64,000 bases of DNA from Silvimonas iriomotensis (GTDB lineage: Bacteria; Pseudomonadota; Gammaproteobacteria; Burkholderiales; Chitinibacteraceae), in assembly GCF_014645535.1 (NCBI RefSeq), contig NZ_BMLX01000001.1, forward strand, positions 985,169 through 1,049,168, written 5' to 3'. A program made the position numbers and the translations under genes. Position 1 is the stretch's first letter. Every line of letters begins with the position of its first letter. The notes beneath the pieces are model-generated. The model did not search any database and was not told the DNA's origin. It worked only from the letters and a program-made list of their open reading frames with translations. Below, in pieces: positions 16,545 to 29,154 of the stretch.

Positions 16545-17600
16545 ATGTGGGAAAACCCGCTGGGTACTGATGGTTTTGAATTTGTTGAATACGCATCCAG
16601 CAACCCGGCCGAACTGGCCGCGCTGTTTGAGCGGCTGGGCTTTACCGCCATTGCCCGGCACCGCCGCAAGAATGTCACCTTGTATCGCCAGGGCGACATC
16701 AATTTCATCCTGAACGCCGAACCGGCCAGCCAGGCCGCGCGCTTTACCGCCACCCACGGCCCCAGCGCCAACGCCTTTGCCTTGCGCGTCAAGGATGCGG
16801 CCTTTGCGGTGGAAGAACTCAGAAAGAAAGGCGCGAAGCTGGTTGAATCTGGCGCCGGCCCGATGGAATTGCAGATTCCGGCCATTGAAGGCATTGGCGG
16901 CGCACTGGTTTACCTGGTAGACCGTTACGGCCAGCAGACTATCTACGACGTGGATTTTCGGCCCATTGCCGGCGTGGATCAGCACCCGGCCGGCGTCGGA
17001 CTGACCGGCATCGACCACCTGACCCACAATGTCGAACGTGGCCACATGGATTTGTGGGCCAGTTTCTATGCGGATTACTTCAACTTCCGCGAGATCCGTT
17101 ATTTCGACATCAAGGGCAAATCAACCGGGCTGCACTCCCGCGCCATGACCAGCCCCTGTGGCCGTATCCGTATTCCGATCAATGAATCGGCCGACGATAA
17201 AAGCCAGATTGCGGAATACCTGCGACTACATCACGGCGAAGGCATTCAGCATATTGCGCTGGCGACATCCGACATTTACCGCGCCGTAGAGCAACTGCGT
17301 GAGAACGACGTGCGGTTTCTGGATACGCCCGACACGTATTACGAACAACTGCCCGGCCGCTTGCCGGATCACCACCAGGATACGGCGCGACTGCAGCGCA
17401 ATCGCATTCTGGTCGACGGCGAACCCATGGATAAAAGCGGCCACGAAGACCTGCTGTTGCAGATTTTCACCGACACCGTGATCGGGCCGCTGTTTTTCGA
17501 GATCATCCAGCGCAAGGGCAATGAAGGTTTTGGCGAGGGCAATTTCAAAGCGCTGTTCGATTCCATTGAAGAAGACCAGCGCCGCCGCGGCGTGATCTGA
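16545..17600 (+). CDS. hpd: 4-hydroxyphenylpyruvate dioxygenase
   Basis: A 351-residue Fe(II)-dependent enzyme that turns 4-hydroxyphenylpyruvate into homogentisate, the first ring-modifying step of tyrosine breakdown. Two VOC domains are present. The iron ligands are visible as H158 (GIDHLTHNV), H236 (GIQHIALAT) and E319 (PLFFEIIQR). GGAGGC lies upstream of the ATG. It is the first gene of hpd-hmgA-fahA-maiA, all tightly spaced. Its TGA overlaps the ATG of hmgA (TGATG), suggesting translational coupling. Confidence 0.96.
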
Positions 17601-18916
17601 TGGTCGCCACCATGACCGACACGCTGCACTACCAGGCCGGCTTTGGCAGTGAACTGCAAACCGAAGCCCTGCCCGGCGCGCTGCCGGCACACAACTCGCC
17701 GCAGCATTGCCCGTACGGCCTGTACGCCGAGCAGATTTCCGGCACGGCGTTTACCGCGCCGCGACACCAGAACCGCCGCAGCTGGCTGTACCGGATACGG
17801 CCCAGCGTCGGCCAGCCCTGCGCCGAGCCCTATGCGCAGCCGCGCTTTACCGCCAGCCTGCGCCCGGACACCCCACCAGAACCCATGCGCTGGGACCCGC
17901 CCCTCATACCCGCCACGCCCGTTGATTTTGTGGATGGCCTTGTCACCGTGGCCGGCAATGGCAGCGCCACGCTGCAGCACGGTTTTGCCATTCACTGGTA
18001 CGCCTGCAACCAGAGCATGAGCGAGCGCGTGTTTTGCAATGCCGACGCGGAAATGCTGATCGTGCCGCAGCACGGCGCGCTGCGGGTGGTGACAGAGCTG
18101 GGGTTGCTGGAGGTGGCACCGCAAGAAATCGTCGTCATCCCGCGCGGCATCCGCTTTTTGCTTGAGCTAACAGAAGACACCGCCCGCGGCTATGTGTGCG
18201 AGAACTTTGGCGCGCCGTTTCGCCTGCCTGATCTGGGGGTGATCGGCGCCAACGGTCTTGCTGCCGCGCGGGACTTCCTCTACCCCGTGGCGTGGTTTGA
18301 AGATCGCACTGCGCCGATCCAGTTGATCACGCGTTACCTTGGGCAGCTGTGGCAAGGCGTACTCCAGCGCTCGCCGTTTGATGTGGTGGCCTGGCACGGC
18401 AATCACGCCCCGTACAAATACGACTTGCGTCGTTTCAACACGCTGGGGTCGGTGAGCTTTGATCACCCGGACCCGTCAATTTTCCTGGTCCTGCAAGCGC
18501 CTTCAGACACGCCGGGCGTCGATCAGATCGACTTCGTGGTGTTTCCACCACGGGCACTGGTGGCGCAAGACACGTTCCGGCCACCCTGGTTTCACCGCAA
18601 TGTCGCCAGCGAGTTCATGGGGCTGATTCACGGCAGGTACGATGCCAAAGCCAGCGGATTTGTGCCCGGCGGCGCCAGCCTGCACCCGTGCATGACCGGT
18701 CACGGGCCGGATGCCGCCACGGTCGAGCGGGCATTGCAGGCCGATACGCACCAGACTGATTACCTCACCGACACCATGGCATTCATGTTTGAAACGCGCC
18801 TGCCCATGCTGCTGACCGATCACGCCCTGAACGGCCCGCAACGGCAACGCAATTACCTGGATTGCTGGGCAGATGTCCGCAGCCGGTTTGCCGGCCCCAC
18901 TCATCCGCAAGGCTAA
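17600..18916 (+). CDS. hmgA: Homogentisate 1,2-dioxygenase
   Basis: A 438-residue cupin-fold dioxygenase that opens the homogentisate ring to 4-maleylacetoacetate. The N-terminal [19 protein letters not shown] and the iron-site region ([14 protein letters not shown] with its His and Glu, later [11 protein letters not shown] with the third His) are intact. The ATG at 17600 overlaps the hpd stop; an in-frame ATG at 17612 (MTDTLHYQ) would also fit and cannot be excluded, since neither has a strong ribosome site. Confidence 0.96.
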
Positions 18917-18919
18917 GTC

Positions 18920-20239
18920 ATGCTCAATACCAACGAAACGCACGACCCGACCCTGCGCAGCTGGGTTGCCTCGGCCAATGGGCCACAAACGGATTTTCCG
19001 CTGCAGAACCTGCCATATGCCGTATTCCGGCGTGCCGGCGCAACCGAAGCATGGCGGATTGGCGTCGCCATTGGCGATCAGGTGCTTGATCTGACGCATG
19101 CGCTTTGCGTGGACGGCCTGCCTGAACTGAAAGACCCGGAACTCCAGAACGCCTGCCGACAAAGCACGCTGAATGCGCTGATGACCTTGGGTCAGCCTGC
19201 CTGGCATGCCTTGCGCCTGGCGTTATCCCGCGCGCTGCGCGCCGGCGCGCCCGCCGCTGCGGTACTGGCAGACGCGCTGGTGCCGCAGTCTGCGGTGGAA
19301 TACGCCCTGCCCGCACAGATTGGCGACTACACCGACTTTTACACGTCCATTCACCACGCCACGCATGTCGGCGCGCTGTTCCGCCCGGATAATCCGCTGC
19401 TGCCCAACTACAAATGGGTGCCGATCGGCTATCACGGCAGAGCCTCATCCATTGGCATATCCGGCCAGCAATTTGCCCGCCCGCTGGGGCAAACCCTGCC
19501 CGCTGGCGCAGCCACGCCGGAACTGGGCCCGGCCCGGCGCATGGATTACGAACTGGAGCTGGGTGTATTCATTGGCAAAGGTAACGCCGCCGGCCAGCGC
19601 ATTGCGCTGGATCGCGCGGACGAGCATGTCTTTGGTCTGTGCCTGTTGAATGACTGGTCGGCACGGGATATTCAGGCCTGGGAATACCAGCCGCTCGGCC
19701 CGTTTCTGGCCAAGAACTTCGCCACCACCATTTCGCCCTGGGTGGTGACACTGGAAGCGCTGGCGCCATTCCGGCAACCCTGGGCGCGCGCGGTGGATGA
19801 CCCGCAACCGCTGCCGTATCTGGACTCGCCCGCGCATCGGGATGCCGGCGCCATCGGCATTGCTTTGGAAGTGGCCATTTGTACGCCGCAGATGCGGCAA
19901 GCCGGCCTGCCGCCACAACGACTGGGGCAGTCGCAATTTGCGCAGTCGTACTGGAGCATTGCGCAGATGGTGGCGCACCACACGATCAATGGCTGCAATT
20001 TGCAGGCGGGTGATTTGCTGGGCAGCGGCACGCAATCCGGGCCACTGGCGCACGAGGCCGGCTCTTTGCTGGAGCTGACCCATGGCGGCAAGCAGCCAAT
20101 GACACTGGCCAACGGGGAAACGCGCACTTTCCTGCAAGACGGCGATGAGGTCATCCTGCGCGGGCGTTGCGCGGCGGATGGCGCAGTCAGCATTGGTTTT
20201 GGCCTGTGTAGTGGCACGCTGCTGCCAGCGCTTGACTGA
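18920..20239 (+). CDS. fahA: Fumarylacetoacetase
   Basis: A 439-residue fumarylacetoacetate hydrolase, which splits fumarylacetoacetate into fumarate and acetoacetate. The SH3-like N-terminal domain (SWVASANGPQTDFPLQNLPYAVF, over residues 14-36) leads into the catalytic FAH domain with DYTDFYTSIHHATHVG, ELELGVFIGKGN and LLNDWSARDIQAWEYQPLGPF stretches. These hold the metal-binding Asp/Glu and the catalytic His. It starts only 3 bases after the hmgA stop. In this operon it is the last step, although it is placed before the isomerase gene. Confidence 0.96.
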   Translation: MLNTNETHDPTLRSWVASANGPQTDFPLQNLPYAVFRRAGATEAWRIGVAIGDQVLDLTHALCVDGLPELKDPELQNACRQSTLNALMTLGQPAWHALRLALSRALRAGAPAAAVLADALVPQSAVEYALPAQIGDYTDFYTSIHHATHVGALFRPDNPLLPNYKWVPIGYHGRASSIGISGQQFARPLGQTLPAGAATPELGPARRMDYELELGVFIGKGNAAGQRIALDRADEHVFGLCLLNDWSARDIQAWEYQPLGPFLAKNFATTISPWVVTLEALAPFRQPWARAVDDPQPLPYLDSPAHRDAGAIGIALEVAICTPQMRQAGLPPQRLGQSQFAQSYWSIAQMVAHHTINGCNLQAGDLLGSGTQSGPLAHEAGSLLELTHGGKQPMTLANGETRTFLQDGDEVILRGRCAADGAVSIGFGLCSGTLLPALD

Positions 20240-20253
20240 AAACAGGTGCGATC

Positions 20254-20907
20254 ATGGCCGATGAACTGGTGCTTTATTCGTATTTCCGCAGCTCTGCCGC
20301 TTACCGCGTGCGCATTGCCTTGCACCTGAAAAACATGCCGTATCGCATTGAGCCGGTTCATTTATTGCGAAACGGCGGCGAGCAGCGCGCCAGTCATTAT
20401 CTGGCCGTCAATCCGGAAGGCCTGGTGCCCACGCTTCACCATGGCGCGGTCACGCTCACGCAGTCATTGGCGATCATCGAGTATCTGGAAGAGCTGGTGC
20501 CGACGCCGCCACTGCTGCCCGCCGCACCGGCAGACCGCGCATGGGTGCGCGCGCTGGCGCTGGCGGTGGCGTGTGATATTCATCCGGTAAACAACCTGCG
20601 CGTATTGCAATACCTGCAGGCCGAACTGGGTGCAACCGATGCGGCAAAGCAGGCCTGGTACCAGCATTGGGTGCAGCTTGGCCTGGCAGCGTTTGAGGCG
20701 CATCTGGCGCAGCGCCCGGCTTCACGGTTCTGCTTTGGCGATACGCCCACGCTGGCCGATTGCTGCCTGATCCCGCAGTTGTTCAACGCGCGCCGCTTTG
20801 GCTGCGATTTGACCCGCCTGCCGCGGATACTCGCCATTGAAGCACAGTGCCAGGCCTTGCCGGCGTTTGTTGCGGCGGCGCCAGAGCAACAGCCTGACGC
20901 CGCCTGA
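20254..20907 (+). CDS. maiA: Maleylacetoacetate isomerase (zeta-class GST)
   Basis: A 217-residue glutathione-dependent isomerase converting maleylacetoacetate to fumarylacetoacetate. The zeta-class signature SSAAYRVRIAL begins at residue 13, followed by NPEGLVPTL and the TQSLAIIEYLEE helix. It is the last gene of the tyrosine operon, 14 bases after fahA. Only three bases separate its stop from the stop of the convergent carboxylase gene and no intrinsic terminator is visible between them. Confidence 0.95.
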   Translation: MADELVLYSYFRSSAAYRVRIALHLKNMPYRIEPVHLLRNGGEQRASHYLAVNPEGLVPTLHHGAVTLTQSLAIIEYLEELVPTPPLLPAAPADRAWVRALALAVACDIHPVNNLRVLQYLQAELGATDAAKQAWYQHWVQLGLAAFEAHLAQRPASRFCFGDTPTLADCCLIPQLFNARRFGCDLTRLPRILAIEAQCQALPAFVAAAPEQQPDAA

Positions 20908-20910
20908 TGC

Positions 20911-23900
20911 CTAGGCCGGCACGGTTTCTTCCGGCTGGATCACCAGCAGATTCTGCCCGGCGCTGACCGGCGTGCCCGACTGGCACAATACCTTGAGTAC
21001 CTTGCCCGAGGCCGGCGCGGTGACGTTGATTTCCATCTTCATGGATTCAACCACCATGATCACATCGCCCGCGGCCACCACATCACCCTCTTTGACCGGC
21101 ACTTGCCAGACATTGCCCGCCACCTGACTGGGAATGCCGCGCGCGCCATCAGGCAACTCGTCTTCTTGCGCCGCACTGCTGCTGGCCTGCTCCATGCTGT
21201 AGTTGTTGGCGCCAGTGGCCTCCCAATGCGCGCGTTCGGCATCAAACGCGGCTTGCTGGGCGGTTTTGAAGGCGGCAATGCTGGCGGCGTTGTCTGCCAG
21301 AAAACGGTTGTAGTCGCCCAGTTTGAACTCGGTGTGCTCGATCTTGAGTTCAAACCGCCCTTGCAGAAAATCCTCGCGCAGCGTCAACAACTCTTCGCCG
21401 CTGACCGGGTAAAAACGGATCTGGTCGAAGAACCGCAACAGCCACGGCTTGCCGGGCACAAAGTCACGCGTGGTTTTGTGGCGATTCCACATCTGGATGG
21501 TCCGGCCGACAAACTGGTAGCCGCCGGGCCCTTCCATGCCGTACACGCACATATACGCGCCACCAATGCCCACCGCGTTTTCCGGCGTCCACGTGCGCGC
21601 CGGGTTGTACTTGGTGGTCACCAGGCGGTGGCGCGGGTCCAGCGGCGTGGCAACTGGCGCGCCCAGATACACATCACCCAGACCCATCACCAGATAACTG
21701 GCGTCAAACACAATCCGCTTTACGTCCTCAATACTGTCCAGCCCGTTGATGCGGCGAATGAACTCGATATTGCTGGGGCACCACGGTGCGTCCGGGCGCA
21801 CGGACTGCATGTATTTCTCGATCGCCAGGCGCGTTGCCGGGTCATCCCAACTGAGCGGCAGATGCACAATGCGTGACGGCACGGTCATGTCGTCAATCGC
21901 CGGCAAGGCGGCCTCGGCCTGCTGAACCTGCACCAGCAATTGCGCCAGCGGCAAGACACGGCTGTCGTAGTGAATCTGCAGCGAGCGGATGCCCGGCGTC
22001 AGGTCGATCACCCCGGTCAGTTGCGCGGCATCGAAACTGTTGTAGAGCGCCTGCACGCGGAAACGCAGGTCCAGATCCAGCACCAGCGGGCCGTATTCGA
22101 CCAGCAGGTATTTGTCGCCCGCCTGCCGGCACACCAGCGCCGGCCGCGCTGCGGTGGCCGGCAAACTCAGCACCACGGGCTCATCCTGGCTGGGGGTGAG
22201 TTCAACCGCCGCTGGTGCAGCCAATTGGTCGATAGATGCTTCCAGCGCCGCTTCCAGTGCTGCCGCATCCGCCTGACTGACGCGCTTGAAGCGCACGGTA
22301 TTGCCCGGGCGCAACTGCCCCATTTTCCACAACTCTGCCTGGACAATCACCGCCGGGCAGACAAAGCCACCCAGGCTTGGGCCATCCGGCCCCAGGATAA
22401 CGGGCATGTCGCCCGTGAAGTCGATGGCACCGATGGCGTAGGCGTTGTCATGAATATTGGACGGGTGCAGGCCGGCTTCGCCACCATCCGTACGTGCCCA
22501 GACCGGCTTGGGGCCAATCAGGCGCACGCCGGTACGGCTGGAGTTGTAATGCACCTCCCAGTCCGTGCTGAAAAACATGTCTACATCGGCTTCGGTGAAA
22601 AAATCCGGCGCGCCGTGCGGGCCGTACAGCACAGAGATTTCCCAATGGGCCGGATAGGCCGGCACCGCGCCGCCCTGCATATCTACCGGCTGACCGTGGG
22701 CCTTGCCCAGATGCAGCACATCACCCGCGCGCAGGGTACGGCCACCGTGACCACCAAACTGGCCCAGGGTAAAGGTGGATTTGCTGCCCAGATAATCCGG
22801 CACATCAAACCCGCCGGCCACTGCCAGATAACTGCGGCAACCGCCACCCTCGATAGCGCCGATGGCCAGCTGATCGCCCGCCCGGACAGGCACTGCCTGC
22901 CATTGCGGCAACGGCTGGCCATTGAGCGTGGCCCGCATGGCGGCGCCAGTCAGTGCGATGACGGTCGCGCTGTTAAAGCGCAAGGTCGGGCCGGTGACGG
23001 TCAGCTCCAGCGCGGCGGCGTCATCCGCATTGCCGACCAGCTTGTTGGCAAGGCGCATGGCGCGGCTATCCATGGGGCCGGACGGCGGCACGCCGATATG
23101 CCAGTAGCCGGTACGGCCGGGGTAATCCTGAATGCTGCTTTGCACGCCGGCATCCAGCACGTCGATGGTATGCGGCGCATAGGCGAACGTGGACAGATAA
23201 CGGGTGATCTGACGCCCCTGGGCAAAGGTGCTGTCGGCCAGAATCTGCCGCAGATACTCAAGATTGGTCTCGATGCCATCCAGCCGGGTTTGCGCCAGGG
23301 TGGCCTGCATGCGCGCCAGCGCCTCGGCCCGGTCCTGACCATGTGTGAGCACCTTGGCCAGTAGCGGATCATAAAACGCAGGCACATCCGTGCCCCGCTC
23401 TACCCAGCTATCAACGCGCGCGCCCTCGCCAAAACTGACTTCGGTCAACAGGCCGGCCGACGGCTGGAACTGCTTGTTGGCATCTTCGGCGTAGACCCGC
23501 ACCTGCATGGCCGCGCCTTGTGGTTGATGCTGGTAAGCGCCAAGGTCTGGCCCCTCGCCGGCTGCGGCTTGCAGCATCCATGCCACCAGATCAACACCGG
23601 TGACGAGTTCAGTGACGCCGTGCTCCACCTGCAAACGGGTGTTGACCTCCAGGAAATAGAACTCGCCAGAGCGCGTATCGAACACAAACTCGACGGTGCC
23701 GGCAGATTGATAACCCACCGAGGACACCAGCCGCACGGCGGTGTCGCACAAGTTTTTGCGCTGTTCCGCACTCAGATGCGGCGCGGGGGTTTCTTCAATC
23801 ACCTTCTGATTGCGGCGCTGGGTGGAGCAATCACGCTCGCCAAGATGAATAACCGTGCCATCGCTGCTGCCAAAAATCTGCACCTCAAGGTGACGGGCGT

Positions 23901-24510
23901 ATTCGACAAACTTCTCCAGATAGATACCGCCATCCTTGAAGTTGTTTTTCGAGAGCCGCTCTACCGTCTGCCAGGCTTCAGCCAGTTGGGTTTCATCCCG
24001 GCACAGTTGCATGCCAATGCCCCCGCCACCGGCCGTACTTTTAAGCATGACCGGGTAGCCGATTTGCGCTGCCGCAACCCGTGCTGCGGCGGCATCGGCC
24101 AGCAGGCCCGTGCCCGGCAGCAGCGGAATACCGTTTTGCTGCGCCAGTTCACGCGCGGTGTGTTTCAGGCCAAAGGCGCGCATATGGGCCGGCTTGGGGC
24201 CGATAAAAGCAATGCCGCTGGCGGCACAGGCCTCGGCAAAAGCGGCGTTCTCAGACAAAAAACCGTAGCCCGGATGAATGGCTTGCGCGCCAGACTGGCG
24301 GGCGGCGGCCAGGATGGTATCGGCCAACAGATAACTTTGCGCAGCCGGCGCCGGGCCGATGCAAATGGCTTCGTCGGCCATTTGCACGTGTTGCGCATGG
24401 CGGTCAGCCTCGGAATACACCGCGACAGAGGCAATGCCCAGTTTTTTGAGAGTACGGATGATGCGGCAAGCAATTTCGCCGCGATTGGCAATCAGAACCT
24501 TGCTGAACAT
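20911..24510 (-). CDS. uca: Biotin-dependent urea/guanidine carboxylase
   Basis: A 1199-residue single-chain carboxylase. Residues 1-450 are a biotin carboxylase ([24 protein letters not shown]-grasp with [10 protein letters not shown]). The middle (~455-1090) carries the KipI/KipA-like carboxyltransferase halves ([24 protein letters not shown] region, then [13 protein letters not shown]). The C-terminus is a biotinyl domain with the modified Lys1158 in ESMKMEIN. Classical urea carboxylase makes allophanate from urea. Here the operon leader has a guanidine-I riboswitch and the two associated DUF1989-type genes are upstream, so guanidine is the more likely substrate. The allophanate hydrolase domain or gene is absent. 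Confidence 0.93.
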
Positions 24511-24607: not shown

Positions 24608-25288
24608 TCAATCCCAGATCAAGAGCCGGATCGGGGTCGGGTTCCACGCATTGCAGGGGTTGTTCAGTTGCGGGCAATTGGAGATCAACACCCAGACATC
24701 CATTTCGGCGCGCAATTCAACGTACTTGCCCGGGCCGGAAACGCCGTCATCAAACTTGAGTGCGCCCGCTTCAGTCACCGGGACATTCATGAAGAAATTG
24801 ATATTGGGCACCAGATCGCGCTTGGTCAGGCCGATATCAGCGTGCTGCATGGCCAGCAGATAGTTGTCGCGGCACGAATGCATGTACTTTTTTTGCAGGG
24901 CGTAGCGCACGGTGTTGCTTTCAGCCGCGCAGGCGCCGCCCAGCGTGTCGTGACGCCCGCAGGTGTCGGCCACAATGGTCAGCATCGGGTTGGCATCGCA
25001 CGAGTACAGCGTGGTGCCCGTGGTCAGGTAAATGCCGCCCTGCCGCAGCATGGTTTCGGTTGCGCTGTAGTGCTCGCTGATGTCATTGCCGTTGTAGAAC
25101 AGCACGTCTGCGGCCTGATTGCCTTCAAGATCCACAATGCGCAGCGTCTGGCCCTTTTTGACGGGATGCAGCCACGGCTCGCCCGCGGGCTGGTAGTGGT
25201 CAAGCGCGGCCCGGGCCGGGTCCAGCGTGCTTTCCTGAACGCGAAAGGCCGTGGCCGTGGTGGTGACTTCGTTGTCGATGACGGTCAT
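24608..25288 (-). CDS. Urea-carboxylase-associated protein 2 (carboxyguanidine deiminase subunit)
   Basis: A 226-residue protein of the DUF1989 family, known as urea carboxylase-associated protein 2. Members of this pair have been shown to form a carboxyguanidine deiminase (CgdAB) that converts carboxyguanidine to allophanate and ammonia. Seen here: [50 protein letters not shown] with conserved Cys and His residues, and [10 protein letters not shown]. It lies 15 bases after the sister gene and 97 bases before the carboxylase. Which subunit name applies is not decided from sequence alone. Confidence 0.9.
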
Positions 25289-25303: not shown

Positions 25304-26110
25304 TCAGACCAGATATTGCATATCGGCGTTATGCAGCGCGCGGGCGTTTTCCGGGCGGAACTGGCGGCAAAAGTCATCTGCCGCCGCACTGCCGGAGCGC
25401 CATGCCACAAGGCCGGTTTTTGCCGGGGCGTAATCAGGACGCGGGTCCAGCGGATGCGGCGCGCTGGAGTACGCAATCAGCGTGTCCATATCAAACCGCA
25501 ACTCGACGTAATCCCCGGCCTTGCCGTGCCCTGGCACGAACACAAAACGCCCTTGCGGATCAACCACCACCTTGCTGAACAGATTGACCGGCGCGATCAA
25601 GTCACGCTTGGTCAGGCCGTATTTGCCAATTTCAATCAACAGCCCATCTTTGCCGTTGCGATACATGGCGTTGCGGGCAGACTCGAAATTGCGTTCGCCG
25701 TATTTGCGCTGGCAGGTTTCGGCATCAAGCACGGCGCCCAGCGGGTCATGCCAGCCCAGCGTATCGGCGGTGATGGAGGCCAGCGAGCGGCCCATGTCGC
25801 TCATCAATACGTGGCCACGGGTGTAATGGGCGGTGTGCTGCGCCTTGAGCGAGTCCGGCATGCTGTAGCGCTCCAGCTTTTCTTTGGCGCTGTACAACAC
25901 CAGCGAGACATTGGCCCCGGCCTCCAGCATGACAAAGCGCAGGCTGCTGCCACGCGGCATAACGCCAGACCAGTGCGCGCCGCCCGGCATGATCTCTGAC
26001 CACATGACTTTGTCCTGTGGTAGATCAGCGGCGAACTGGCGCCAGAACTCGGGCGTATCAACCGGGCTGGCAGAAGGCGGGTTGGCGGGTATGCGTGAAA
26101 AATCGGTCAT
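25304..26110 (-). CDS. Urea-carboxylase-associated protein 1 (carboxyguanidine deiminase subunit)
   Basis: A 268-residue DUF1989-related protein, the usual partner of the preceding family. Motifs include MPGGAHWSGVMPRGSSLRF, the HVLMSDMGRSLASIT region, DTLGWHDPLGAVLDAE and LFSKVVVDPQGRFVF. I start it at 26110 because AAGGAG sits five bases upstream; the frame is open six codons further. It probably forms a heteromer with its neighbour to remove one nitrogen of carboxyguanidine as ammonia. It is the fourth gene of the guanidine operon. Confidence 0.9.
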   Translation of the reverse strand: MTDFSRIPANPPSASPVDTPEFWRQFAADLPQDKVMWSEIMPGGAHWSGVMPRGSSLRFVMLEAGANVSLVLYSAKEKLERYSMPDSLKAQHTAHYTRGHVLMSDMGRSLASITADTLGWHDPLGAVLDAETCQRKYGERNFESARNAMYRNGKDGLLIEIGKYGLTKRDLIAPVNLFSKVVVDPQGRFVFVPGHGKAGDYVELRFDMDTLIAYSSAPHPLDPRPDYAPAKTGLVAWRSGSAAADDFCRQFRPENARALHNADMQYLV

Positions 26111-26131
26111 GCTCACTCCTTGCCACAAGCA

Positions 26132-26965
26132 TCAGGCGGTCGCGCCAGACAGTTTTTGTAGTTGTTCCAGATCCGTCTTCACTCCGGCGGTCTCCCGGAT
26201 GCGGTCCAGAATCTCGCGCTTCAGGCGCAGGAATTCAGGTGCCAGTTTCATGTCCTGATTGCGGGCAAACGGCAGCGGCACGTGGTACAGCGAGTCAATC
26301 CGGCCCGGGCGCGGCGCCATCAGCACCACCCGGTCGCCCAGGTAAATGGCCTCTTCCACGTCGTGCGTGACAAAGACGATGGTGACTTTCTCCAGCCGCC
26401 GCACGTGGCAGATCAGGTCGTGCATGACTTCACGTGTTTGCGCATCCAGCGCGCCGAAGGGTTCATCCATCAGCAAGATGCGCGGCTTGCTCATCAGCGC
26501 CCGCGCAATGGCCACGCGCTGCTGCATGCCGCCGGACAACTGCGCCGGATATTTGTCAGCCGCAGCGGTCAGCCCCATCAGGCTCAGCAAGGCGTCGGCG
26601 CGGCCGCTGGCTTGCTCGACATCTGCGCTGGTGCGGTTTTGCTGGTTTACCGCCAGCCGCCGGCTGAACTTGATGTTGTCCATGACATTCAGCCACGGGT
26701 ACAGACTGTAGTGCTGGAACACCATGGCGCGGTCTGCGCCCGGGCCATCAATCGCCCGGCCATCTACGGCAATCTGCCCGCTGGTGGGCGTTTCCAGCCC
26801 GCCAATCATGCGCAACAGGGTGGATTTGCCGCAGCCGGACGCGCCCACAAAGGTGATGAACTCGTTATCCCCGATATTAAGGTTGGCATCTTGCAGCGCC
26901 TGCACTGCCTGGGCGCCGCGACCAAAAACCTTGTTGACGCTGCGGATTTCAATTTTCTGTGTCAT
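26132..26965 (-). CDS. ABC transporter ATP-binding protein (guanidine operon)
   Basis: A 277-residue ATPase of the TauB/SsuB/NrtD group. Walker A is GASGCGKSTLLR, the signature LSGGMQQRVAIARAL, Walker B ILLMDEPFGALD, and the switch His lies in FVTHDVEEA. It energises uptake through the adjacent permease and binding protein. Family members import taurine, nitrate, sulfonates or related small compounds; operon context points to guanidine or a guanidine-like molecule. The permease stop and this start are only six bases apart. Confidence 0.94.
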   Translation of the reverse strand: MTQKIEIRSVNKVFGRGAQAVQALQDANLNIGDNEFITFVGASGCGKSTLLRMIGGLETPTSGQIAVDGRAIDGPGADRAMVFQHYSLYPWLNVMDNIKFSRRLAVNQQNRTSADVEQASGRADALLSLMGLTAAADKYPAQLSGGMQQRVAIARALMSKPRILLMDEPFGALDAQTREVMHDLICHVRRLEKVTIVFVTHDVEEAIYLGDRVVLMAPRPGRIDSLYHVPLPFARNQDMKLAPEFLRLKREILDRIRETAGVKTDLEQLQKLSGATA

Positions 26966-26971
26966 CGGTGT

Positions 26972-27817
26972 TTACCTCTTGGCCAGCCATGGAAACGCCA
27001 GGCGATGCACCAGACGGAACGCTTGATCGATCACCAGCCCCATGGCGCCGATCAGCAAAATGCCGCCGAAGATTTTGTCGGTCTGCAAAAAGCGCTGGGC
27101 CTTGAGAATGGCAAACCCCACGCCAGAGTTGGCGGCGACAAGTTCTGCCACCACAAGGTAAGTCCAGGCCCAGCCCATGGTGATGCGCAAGGTATCCAGC
27201 AAGGCTGGTCTGGCCGAGGGAATGATCACCAGCCGGATGATCTCGCTGCGGGTGGCGCCCATGGTTTGGGCGGCTTCGATCTGCGCATCCGGCACGCGGC
27301 GCACGTCTTCGGCCACCATCAGTACCATCTGGAAAAACGTGCCGATGAAAATCACCGCCACTTTGGCGCCTTCATCAATCCCCACCCACAGCATGACCAG
27401 CGGCACAAACGCCACGGCCGGCATGTAGCGGATAAAGTCGGTCAGCGGCTCCAGCAGTGCTTGTACCGGGCGGAACGTGCCGATCAGCAAACCCAGTGGC
27501 AGCGCCACCAGCAGCGACAGCGCCCAGCCGGCACAGACACGCCAGGCACTGATGGCCATATCGGCGCCCAGATTGTCATCGGTCCACCATTGACCCAGCC
27601 GCTCTGCCACCTGGGCCGGGCCCGGCAGGAACACCGGCGACACCCATTGCGTGGCGGCCAGCGCCCACCACAGTACGAGTGGCAACAACAGGCCAGCCAG
27701 GGCGATCAACGCATATTGCCGCCGGCCCAACTGACCGCGGATCGCCCAGAAAGTAGTGCGCCGGGGCGTGGCCGTGCTGGCCGCATTGCGCGCCGGAATG
27801 GTTTCTGGTGCAGACAT
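26972..27817 (-). CDS. ABC transporter permease (guanidine operon)
   Basis: A 281-residue inner-membrane permease of the TauC/SsuC type with about six hydrophobic segments and the EAA loop EAAQTMGATRSEIIRLVIIP that docks the ATPase. The ATG at 27817 has AGAGGGGG upstream; the open frame extends 22 codons further into the gap after the binding-protein gene but lacks a site there. It forms the channel for the substrate delivered by the preceding binding protein. Confidence 0.93.
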   Translation of the reverse strand: MSAPETIPARNAASTATPRRTTFWAIRGQLGRRQYALIALAGLLLPLVLWWALAATQWVSPVFLPGPAQVAERLGQWWTDDNLGADMAISAWRVCAGWALSLLVALPLGLLIGTFRPVQALLEPLTDFIRYMPAVAFVPLVMLWVGIDEGAKVAVIFIGTFFQMVLMVAEDVRRVPDAQIEAAQTMGATRSEIIRLVIIPSARPALLDTLRITMGWAWTYLVVAELVAANSGVGFAILKAQRFLQTDKIFGGILLIGAMGLVIDQAFRLVHRLAFPWLAKR

Positions 27818-27879
27818 GGGCGTTCCCCCTCTTGTGGTGTCAGACGGCGTAGGTGCGGGCGGCCAGCCCGCACCGTGCA

Positions 27880-28869
27880 TCACTTGGCGGCTTCCTTGAC
27901 CAGCGAGCCATCCAGGCCTTTGGCAAAGTCAGGCTTGCCATCAACCAGTTTGTTTTCCAGCAGGAATTTATTGATGGTCGGCGCCACGGCGGCCAGCGAA
28001 GTCGGGCTGGCCGGGTTGAAGGCGTCAGCGTTGTCCTTGGCGGTAAAGAAGCGAGTACCAGGCAAGAAGGCCTTGTATTCGTCCGGCTTCATGCTGACCA
28101 CTTTGGACATGATCTTCGAGGCTTCATCCGGATGGCTGCTGATGTAGGCCTGCGCGTCGTACCAGGCCTTGATCATGCCGACCAGTTCCTTGCGCTTGGT
28201 CTGGATGGCCTTGTCTTGCGCCACCAGCAAATCCGGAATCAGGCCCGGCATGTCTTTGGAGGTGAAGAGCGCGTGGCCCTTGCCGGAAGTCTGGATGGTG
28301 TTCACCCACGGGTTCCACACCACCGCCGCATCAACCCGGCCGGCCATGAATGCCGCTGCAGCATCGCCGGCGGACAAATTGGTCAGCTTCACGTCCTTGA
28401 GCGACATGCCGTGTTTTTCCAGCGCGGTCACCAGCACAAAGTGCGAGATGCTGTATTGCTCCAGCGCGATGGTCTTGCCTTTGAGATCAGCAAAAGACTT
28501 GATGCCTGGGCCAACCATCAGGGCGTCGTTGCCGAACGAGTTGTCGTTCACCAGCACCGCCTTGACCGGCACGCCCTTGGCCAGCGGTGCCATGGTGTCA
28601 GACCAGGTCTGGGAGTTGGCATCCAGCTGGCCGCTGGATAGCGCCGAAATGGAATCGGTGTAGTTGGCAAACCAGACGAGTTTCACGTCAGCGCCATATT
28701 TCTTGAAATAGCCGTTCTGTTCAGCCACGTACCAGGCTACCCAGCCCGGCCAGTCGGACACGCCGACCTTGACCTCGGCGCGGGCAATGGGCGACCAGGC
28801 GGAGAACATGACAAAAGAGATGGCAGCAAGACGACAGAGGGTACGGCGGACAGCTTGGCGGGCAAACAT
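27880..28869 (-). CDS. ABC substrate-binding protein, NMT1/TauA-like (guanidine operon)
   Basis: A 329-residue periplasmic binding protein with a Sec signal peptide (MFARQAVRRTLCRLAAISF, cleaved near ARA-E). The mature part has the NMT1/TauA pattern: KVGVSDWPGWVAWYVAEQNGYF in two parts, ISALSSGQLDA, FADLKGKTIALEQ and AAVVWNPWV. It is the first gene behind the guanidine-I riboswitch. The start at 28869 is set by GAGGAG eight bases upstream; longer in-frame starts would read through the riboswitch and are rejected. The ligand is inferred, not shown. Confidence 0.94.
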   Translation of the reverse strand: MFARQAVRRTLCRLAAISFVMFSAWSPIARAEVKVGVSDWPGWVAWYVAEQNGYFKKYGADVKLVWFANYTDSISALSSGQLDANSQTWSDTMAPLAKGVPVKAVLVNDNSFGNDALMVGPGIKSFADLKGKTIALEQYSISHFVLVTALEKHGMSLKDVKLTNLSAGDAAAAFMAGRVDAAVVWNPWVNTIQTSGKGHALFTSKDMPGLIPDLLVAQDKAIQTKRKELVGMIKAWYDAQAYISSHPDEASKIMSKVVSMKPDEYKAFLPGTRFFTAKDNADAFNPASPTSLAAVAPTINKFLLENKLVDGKPDFAKGLDGSLVKEAAK

Positions 28870-28942
28870 GGCAAGGCTCCTCTTGGACAATTCGGGTACG
28901 AGAGGCGGGCAGACCATGTGCACATACACTGTATCTGTCGCG

Positions 28943-29095
28943 ACCTCCCGGGCTTTTGTCCCGCCGTGGAGCCCCTGGCAACCAGGCAAAGCCGCGTTGC
29001 GGCTTGTCGGGCAGTCATCACCGTGTGATGGAGGGCCGGAAAGCTCTCGGACCAGTCATTCATCCCCGCAGGGACCGGAACCCTAGCTTTCCTGA
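28943..29095 (-). ncRNA. Guanidine-I (ykkC) riboswitch
   Basis: The minus strand carries the three hallmark conserved blocks of the guanidine-I aptamer in order and spacing: GCTAGGGTTCCGG (29087-29075), GACTGGTCCGAGAG (29057-29044) and ACGGCGGGACAAAAGCCCGG (from 29067 minus about 100, i.e. 28967 downward). Variable GC-rich hairpins lie between them (for example AAGCCGCAACGCGGCTT near 28988-29004). It sits 74 bases before the start of the binding-protein gene. A CCTCT at 28905-28901 can pair with the AGAGG of the Shine-Dalgarno at 28883-28879, so control of translation initiation is possible. Guanidine binding would turn the operon on. Confidence 0.94.
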
Positions 29096-29136
29096 AAGAC
29101 GATGCGAACATGTCGCACCTCTCGTGCTGTCATCTA

Positions 29137-29154
29137 ATGCAAGTGGCATGCCTG
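29137..29154 (-). promoter_or_regulatory. Sigma-54-like -24/-12 promoter of the guanidine operon
   Basis: The minus strand reads CAGGCATGCCACTTGCAT: GG (29152-29151), ten bases, GC (29140-29139), with GGCA and TTGCAT matching the conserved cores of the sigma-54 element. Transcription would start near 29127, about 30 bases before the riboswitch. A nitrogen-scavenging operon under RpoN is sensible, but the -24 half is imperfect. Confidence 0.5.

Follow-up and report, generated by a model that had tools for sequence, protein, structure and literature searches.

The locus examined here raises two questions: which substrate is served by a six-gene operon whose protein profiles carry the name of urea, and how the RNA leader at its head would respond to that substrate. 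We analyzed a 64,000-nucleotide stretch of the Silvimonas iriomotensis genome (the window; features described below lie on its minus strand unless another strand is given). The original prediction for this DNA had placed a guanidine-I (ykkC) aptamer at 29095-28943, 74 bases before a binding-protein gene, had re-read the operon from urea to guanidine use, and had suggested translational control through a CCTCT motif able to pair with the Shine-Dalgarno sequence. Our main reading, to which we assign a probability of roughly two in three, is that a guanidine-assimilation operon is controlled by a guanidine-I riboswitch whose platform consists of three strands and operates by strand exchange. The aptamer, a guanidine-II riboswitch, an Asp signature in the carboxylase, sigma-54- and NtrC-like motifs, partner specificity between two leader strands (E1 and E3) and local pairing of the aptamer tail (E2) with E3 were computed; from these we infer the promoter use, ligand response, folding order and translational output of the platform.

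A covariance-model search with the guanidine-I family (RF00442; cmscan against Rfam 15) places the aptamer at 29097-28943 with a score of 68.4 bits, above the gathering score of 63 (E 4.8e-10), so that the predicted span was correct to 2 nt. The match covers model positions 1-107 of 107, and the conserved blocks CUAGGGUUCCG, CUGGUCCGAGAG and ACGG-GGGA-AAAAGCCCGGGAG are all present in the alignment. Guanidine-I is the only Rfam family above its gathering score at this site, and the site is the sole guanidine-I match at E of at most 0.001 in the 4.59-Mb genome. The modest score is probably attributable to an enlarged P2, which measures 56 nt compared with 10 nt in the model; the three other Silvimonas genomes searched score 64.0-66.7 bits. 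Large variable insertions are seen in Silvimonas aptamers, within P2 in the window (28970-29040), G041 and S. terrae, and within the P1 arm in G043 (L174), where P2 is short. Between the aptamer end at 28943 and the ATG of the binding-protein gene at 28869 lie 73 nt, in keeping with the distance first given. The presence of a guanidine-I aptamer in front of an operon for guanidine import and breakdown is thus confirmed, and the riboswitch is predicted to bind its ligand and to raise expression when guanidine is present.

Upstream of the aptamer we identified a putative promoter, which had been overlooked. A sigma-54 -24/-12 box, GGCATGCCACTTGC (GG-N10-GC), is found at 29139-29152 and is aligned in the other three Silvimonas genomes and in G046; RpoN is encoded in the genome. 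Silvimonas leaders carry the box some 66 nt upstream of the aptamer core, and conserved sequence follows just past the expected start. Boxes were identified by GG-N10-GC in a TGGCA/TTGC context, which we take to be the sigma-54 consensus, using a matrix hand-weighted from that consensus with a threshold score of 8.9. Among 77 unique leaders collected by regular expression across the loci of this analysis, 71 reach this score, and 63 of the 77 have the start of the box 55-95 nt upstream of the core; when 1919 windows of 200 nt were drawn at random from these loci, 7.3% contained a match of that score at any position. The six leaders below threshold come from L068 and L075, the latter twice (two Pseudanabaena loci), L070 (Campylobacterales), L113 and L164. 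Farther upstream lie two TGCACCA repeats (29323-29317 and 29291-29285), which we call enhancer half-sites on the basis of what we take to be the NtrC consensus. This repeat pair, 30-32 nt apart and at -239 to -184 from the aptamer core, is kept in all six genomes examined. A full NtrC-like palindrome is absent from the window, which carries the two repeats instead; across the 77 leaders, 24 have TGCAC-N7-GTGCA upstream when up to one mismatch is tolerated and 52 when up to two are, whereas mononucleotide shuffles predict 0.6 and 8.2, respectively. These motifs make it probable that a sigma-54 nitrogen-starvation promoter with NtrC-like sites drives the operon.

Transcription from this promoter would start at 29127, 12 nt downstream of the box, and would depend on RpoN and NtrC. 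The RNA would then open with strand E1, CACGAGAGG (predicted transcript +2 to +10, 29118-29126), which pairs with E3, CCUCUCG (28899-28905), a strand located between the aptamer and the Shine-Dalgarno sequence and containing the CCTCT of the original prediction. In duplex and ensemble calculations E3 is the common partner of E1 and of E2, GGGAGG (28944-28949), the aptamer tail, which competes with E1 for E3 in local folds. Between E1 and the aptamer, inspection by eye suggests a possible small hairpin, UGCGA/UCGCA (29103-29117), kept with changes in G046 and G060. Across leaders E1 and E3 change together: CGAGAGG/CCUCUCG is found alongside GAGAGGGCG/CGCCCUCUC, GAGGGUGC/GCACCCUC, GCGAGAGAA/UUCUCUCGC and GAGAGUACA/UGUACUCUC.

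We measured partner specificity in 46 cluster representatives of the 71 box-bearing leaders, the 6 of 77 below the box threshold being left out. The promoter box alone defined the E1 segment (start -2 to +20), whose partner was sought in the 70 nt following the aptamer. Own partners average -20.98 kcal/mol and swapped partners -17.06, and none of 20,000 permutations reaches the own-partner mean; for three control segments, own minus swapped is -0.7, -0.1 and +0.4. The own-versus-swapped difference peaks at the predicted start (+0, -3.58), with signal spanning +0 to +15, and on the downstream side 10-30 nt after the aptamer (-3.73), while outside windows overlapping the peaks it stays between -0.8 and +1.03. 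Two results count against: at unrelated offsets, too, own and swapped partners can differ by as much as -0.8 kcal/mol, most markedly at -48 (50 of 5000 permutations), and individually 26 of the 46 leaders beat 95% of shuffled E1 segments. The specificity recurs with the same windows in independent, held-out leaders obtained by searching 369 genomes across the class (-16.03 own, -13.10 swapped; 6 of 20,000 permutations; n=19). In that set, no leader was found by regular expression in 3 of 27 loci (L248, L250, L253) and L255 gave no new core; 21 of 23 leaders carry a sigma-54-like box, 2 fall below threshold, and the 21 were then reduced to 19.

Of the 92 leaders that carry a box, 8 have it 31-39 nt upstream of the core, too close for E1 to fit (L035, L052, L053, L067, L073, L240, L254 and L257, with Azospirillum and Hyphomicrobium among them). 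The E1 strand is therefore not universal, and the platform must differ there. A search of these eight for an alternative upstream partner of E3 ranked the own sequence first of 92 in one leader and 9th to 79th in the other seven. They were kept in the main pairing tests; when they are removed, own and swapped means are -21.79 and -17.65 (n=43) and, for the held-out set, -17.31 and -13.76 (n=16), each with 0 of 20,000 permutations.

The aptamer tail also finds its partner downstream. When the stretch that begins at the tail and ends shortly after E3 is folded locally, at least three of the five GGGAG bases of E2 pair downstream in 44 of 46 leaders and in 19 of 19 held-out leaders, from which it follows that E1 mimics the aptamer's own tail. 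The same hairpin takes at least four of the nine bases of the P3 strand GGGAYAAAA in 37 of the 46. Co-variation of GGGAYAAAA with the leader was considered and set aside, since it runs in the right direction but is weak: among the 46 representatives TTGTC occurs in 8 of 22 C-type leaders, and T-type leaders have TTATC in 1 and TTGTC in 3 of 24; among all 71 the counts are 12 of 32 for TTGTC in the C type, and 6 (TTATC) and 5 (TTGTC) of 39 in the T type.

We propose that, under nitrogen limitation, NtrC and sigma-54 would start transcription at about 29127, giving an RNA that begins with E1. During synthesis E3, just past the aptamer, would be free to choose between E1 and the tail E2. With guanidine bound, E2 would be kept in the aptamer and E3 parked on E1, and the Shine-Dalgarno sequence would be free (on). 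Without guanidine, the 3' half of the aptamer would refold into a long hairpin, CGGGAGG:CCUCUCG, GGACAA:UUGUCC and GGCUCC:GGAGCC, that would hold the Shine-Dalgarno sequence (off). In the predicted ligand-free fold, GGACAA is the 5' strand of P3 (28956-28961) and pairs with UUGUCC at 28890-28885, and GGCUCC is the 3' side of P2 (28968-28973) and pairs with GGAGCC of the Shine-Dalgarno region AAGAGGAGCC (28875-28884; assigned from sequence and fold). Farther along the operon, a guanidine-II riboswitch would separately gate the carboxylase.

We computed ensemble folds of the window leader. The folding model contains neither ligand nor tertiary energy, and a locked aptamer served as the stand-in for ligand. 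In the growing RNA, E1:E3 holds 4.3-5.6 of 7 pairs when the transcript ends just past E3. Free RNA ending at the Shine-Dalgarno sequence already has 6.97 of 7 E2:E3 pairs with 1.2 Shine-Dalgarno:GGCUCC pairs, and at ligand-free full length these values are 6.97 and 5.4. Once the aptamer is locked, E1:E3 holds 6.84-6.94 of 7 pairs until the Shine-Dalgarno sequence emerges. However, the locked full-length RNA counts against a clean switch, as E3 forms 4.0 pairs with the Shine-Dalgarno sequence and E1:E3 retains 1.9 of 7, and the aptamer with E1:E3 (-95.9 kcal/mol) is less stable than the aptamer with E3 on the Shine-Dalgarno sequence (-100.2 kcal/mol).

The same strands could work at the level of transcription, with E2:E3 as an intrinsic or Rho-assisted terminator, E1:E3 as the antiterminator and translation uninvolved. 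A transcriptional on-switch is the published view (PMC12186494, PMC12508155, in the portions cited here), and in some relatives the long hairpin is followed by U-rich sequence in a terminator-like arrangement: the L106/L023 leader of a Sideroxydans MAG forms AAAGCCCGGGAGG:CCUCCCGGGCUUU and then GUUAUUUU, and L108 and L116 resemble it with small differences. At least five T occur among the nine bases after E3 in 20 of 46 leaders, compared with 11.7% of control windows that lie further downstream and partly in coding sequence, and some of these T pair with the aptamer's AAAA. Against a terminator here, the window has 3 T in the nine bases after E3, and a U-tract is lacking at that position in the window and its genus; its off mechanism would therefore be unlike that of some relatives, or Rho-linked. 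We regard purely transcriptional control of this operon as possible but somewhat improbable. It is unlikely that E1:E3 plays no part in switching and instead clamps the 5' end permanently, protecting the mRNA or insulating the aptamer. The position of E1 at the predicted 5' end of the tested leaders would suit such a clamp, but the tail pairs downstream in nearly all local folds (the 44 of 46 and 19 of 19 given above), so that E1:E3 and E2:E3 compete.

Direct sequestration of the Shine-Dalgarno sequence by CCTCT, relieved by guanidine, was the mechanism first suggested, and as the main mechanism we reject it as quite improbable. Its motifs stand: CCTCT and AGAGG are both present in the window leader, AGAGG can pair with CCUCU in the window, in G041 and in S. 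terrae, and the locked full-length ensemble contains the E3:Shine-Dalgarno pairs described above. The pairing itself is not conserved even within the genus, since CCAAGAGGAG of the window is replaced by CCACCAGGAG in G043 and by UCUCAGGAGC in G046, and the pairing is lost in both while CCTCTCG, CGAGAGG and GGGAGG remain intact. Moreover, it arises with the aptamer locked and is absent from the free fold, so that it predicts an operon switched off by ligand, opposite to the on-switch as which guanidine-I is usually described (PMC12186494, in the part consulted). Control at the level of translation is still plausible if, instead, the ligand-free Shine-Dalgarno GGAGCC pairs with the aptamer's own GGCUCC, as modeled in the strand-exchange reading.

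The genes downstream of the leader were then compared with protein profiles. The operon begins with an ABC substrate-binding protein (27880-28869; SsuA family over cut-off), followed by an ABC permease (26972-27883; no equivalog cut-off reached in the profile search) and an ABC ATPase (26132-26965; none over cut-off among the best 25 of 189 families). Next come two DUF1989 subunits beside the carboxylase, the arrangement expected of CgdA/CgdB, encoded by carboxyguanidine deiminase subunit genes of TIGR03425/UAAP1 (25304-26128; 326.9 bits, cut-off 205.95) and TIGR03424/UAAP2 (24608-25288; 340.2 bits, cut-off 284.7). The last gene (20911-24510, ATG at 24510) encodes a 1199-aa carboxylase of TIGR02712 (1907.5 bits), a profile named urea carboxylase; the protein shares 87% identity with its Silvimonas terrae counterpart. 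The binding protein scores 164.7 bits against the TIGR03427 'urea' binding protein, below the cut-off of 333.9, and the ABC system is probably a guanidine importer. On the plus strand, hmgA and the genes for fumarylacetoacetase and maiA (homogentisate degradation; 17600-20907) converge on the carboxylase gene.

Guanidine carboxylases are characterized by two Asp residues, at the positions numbered 1330 and 1584 in K. lactis (PMC11410670, in the part cited). Asp697 and Asp946 of the window carboxylase align with these positions, at which the K. lactis enzyme has Asn1330 and Asp1584; the first Asp is present, by motif match, in 81 of 81 carboxylases (the window's and its 80 nearest relatives). 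Both Asp residues support the assignment of this 'urea carboxylase' as a guanidine carboxylase and of the operon to guanidine, and here the original prediction was right. It had overlooked that the operon contains no allophanate hydrolase. This gene is found on contig 4 beside a carboxylase paralogue with Asn at the first site (L089, C4:85087-88707; the Asp-type gene is L090, C1:1006103-1009675, under guanidine riboswitches), and the 17 kb around the paralogue yield no Rfam match over gathering, guanidine riboswitches included. The genome thus appears to hold one guanidine carboxylase and one urea carboxylase, a ready-made pair in which to test how guanidine and urea are told apart, and the guanidine pathway would have to borrow allophanate hydrolase from the other locus. 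That the operon uses urea, as the profile names say, and carries its riboswitches incidentally is highly improbable in view of the two Asp residues and of this second carboxylase. At the contig 4 locus a strong sigma-54-like box, TGGCACGCCCCTTGCT (L097, 7190-7205), begins 33 nt ahead of the longest open frame for allophanate hydrolase, and a urtB-type urea transporter gene is nearby.

A guanidine-II (mini-ykkC) riboswitch within the operon had also escaped the original prediction. It lies at 24577-24531, ends 20 nt before the carboxylase ATG, and shows the two GG-ACGA-CC hairpins of RF01068 (44.6 bits, gathering score 32). An anti-Shine-Dalgarno in its linker, to be released on ligand binding, was considered: by eye, the linker GCCUUU could pair with AAGGGC in the window, but this element is not conserved in the S. 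terrae linker, and the pairing does not form in the MFE fold of the window stretch. Guanidine-I with guanidine-II about 4.4 kb downstream is found in all four Silvimonas genomes searched, the window's included, and G046 and G060, of the same family, also carry both. Of 81 carboxylase loci, 66 had at least 6 kb of upstream sequence. In 25 of these 66, a guanidine-I pattern occurs no more than 9 kb, and a guanidine-II pattern no more than 260 nt, upstream of the carboxylase; a further 21 have guanidine-I without guanidine-II, 9 have only guanidine-II, and 11 lack both. Pattern matching may miss copies. Elsewhere in the genome a second guanidine-II (L002, 1501-1545) precedes an SMR exporter gene (1566-1895) whose best profile is SugE (109.9 bits, below the cut-off of 126). 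Six genomes, two of them Pseudanabaena, have a divergent pair of guanidine-I riboswitches, one on each strand and separated by a few hundred bases (G143 C9, G209 C5, G216 C5, G265 C5, G284 C35 and G537 C40).

Beyond Silvimonas, we think the chances slightly better than even that most beta- and gammaproteobacterial guanidine-I riboswitches share this platform and depend for full function on an RNA started by sigma-54, which would make them a gate for nitrogen limitation and guanidine together. The first 10-20 nt of the sigma-54 transcript would act as a co-changing mimic of the GGGAG tail in the aptamer, mimic and tail would compete for one downstream strand, and full switching would be confined to transcripts that begin at the nitrogen-starvation promoter. 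A third strand fixed by the promoter across many leaders would explain the switching of proteobacterial guanidine-I versions and couple a riboswitch to one specific sigma factor; the platform also predicts that the switch fails if the transcription start is moved. In the literature searched, to which the founding guanidine-I papers do not belong, we found no mention of a 5'-end strand or of NtrC or sigma-54 in connection with guanidine-I. The three-strand platform looks undescribed; an earlier description is possible.

Nothing is unusual about the aptamer, the operon or the layout with two riboswitches, all of which are already known. In Vreelandella boliviensis (PMC12508155, cited in part) a guanidine-I riboswitch likewise heads the operon and a guanidine-II riboswitch lies between cgdB and the carboxylase, together with an ABC importer and cgdA/B; both RNAs were probed in-line, and the operon's proteins rise on guanidine. 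That operon includes allophanate hydrolase and methylguanidine genes, unlike the window operon, and the cited portions of the account mention neither a 5'-end strand nor a sigma-54 promoter. According to the part of PMC12186494 used here, Raoultella, Erwinia and Klebsiella similarly have guanidine-I for import and deiminase and guanidine-II for the carboxylase, with allophanate hydrolase following the carboxylase, whereas in the window genome it is on another contig. Nitrogen control has precedents in partly cited sources. Urea carboxylase mRNA is lower (-6.0 fold) in a B. cenocepacia ntrC mutant; the NtrC regulon of that species holds urea-carboxylase-type genes, not necessarily of the guanidine type, and lists related transporter and aminomethyltransferase genes without a fold value (PMC5491218); a survey of sigma-54 regulons predicts sigma-54 control of COG3665 genes (PMC12316311). 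Neither is linked to guanidine: the word occurs 0 times in both texts, and 'riboswitch' occurs 0 times in PMC5491218 and once, in a reference, in PMC12316311. A structural parallel is the PRPP aptamer (ykkC subtype 2), in which sequences 5' and 3' of the ykkC fold likewise pair together, as a P0 helix that the excerpted source describes as absent from the guanidine aptamer (PMC6031431). P0 closes the PRPP aptamer and extends its pocket, whereas E1:E3 lies outside the guanidine aptamer and competes with its tail.
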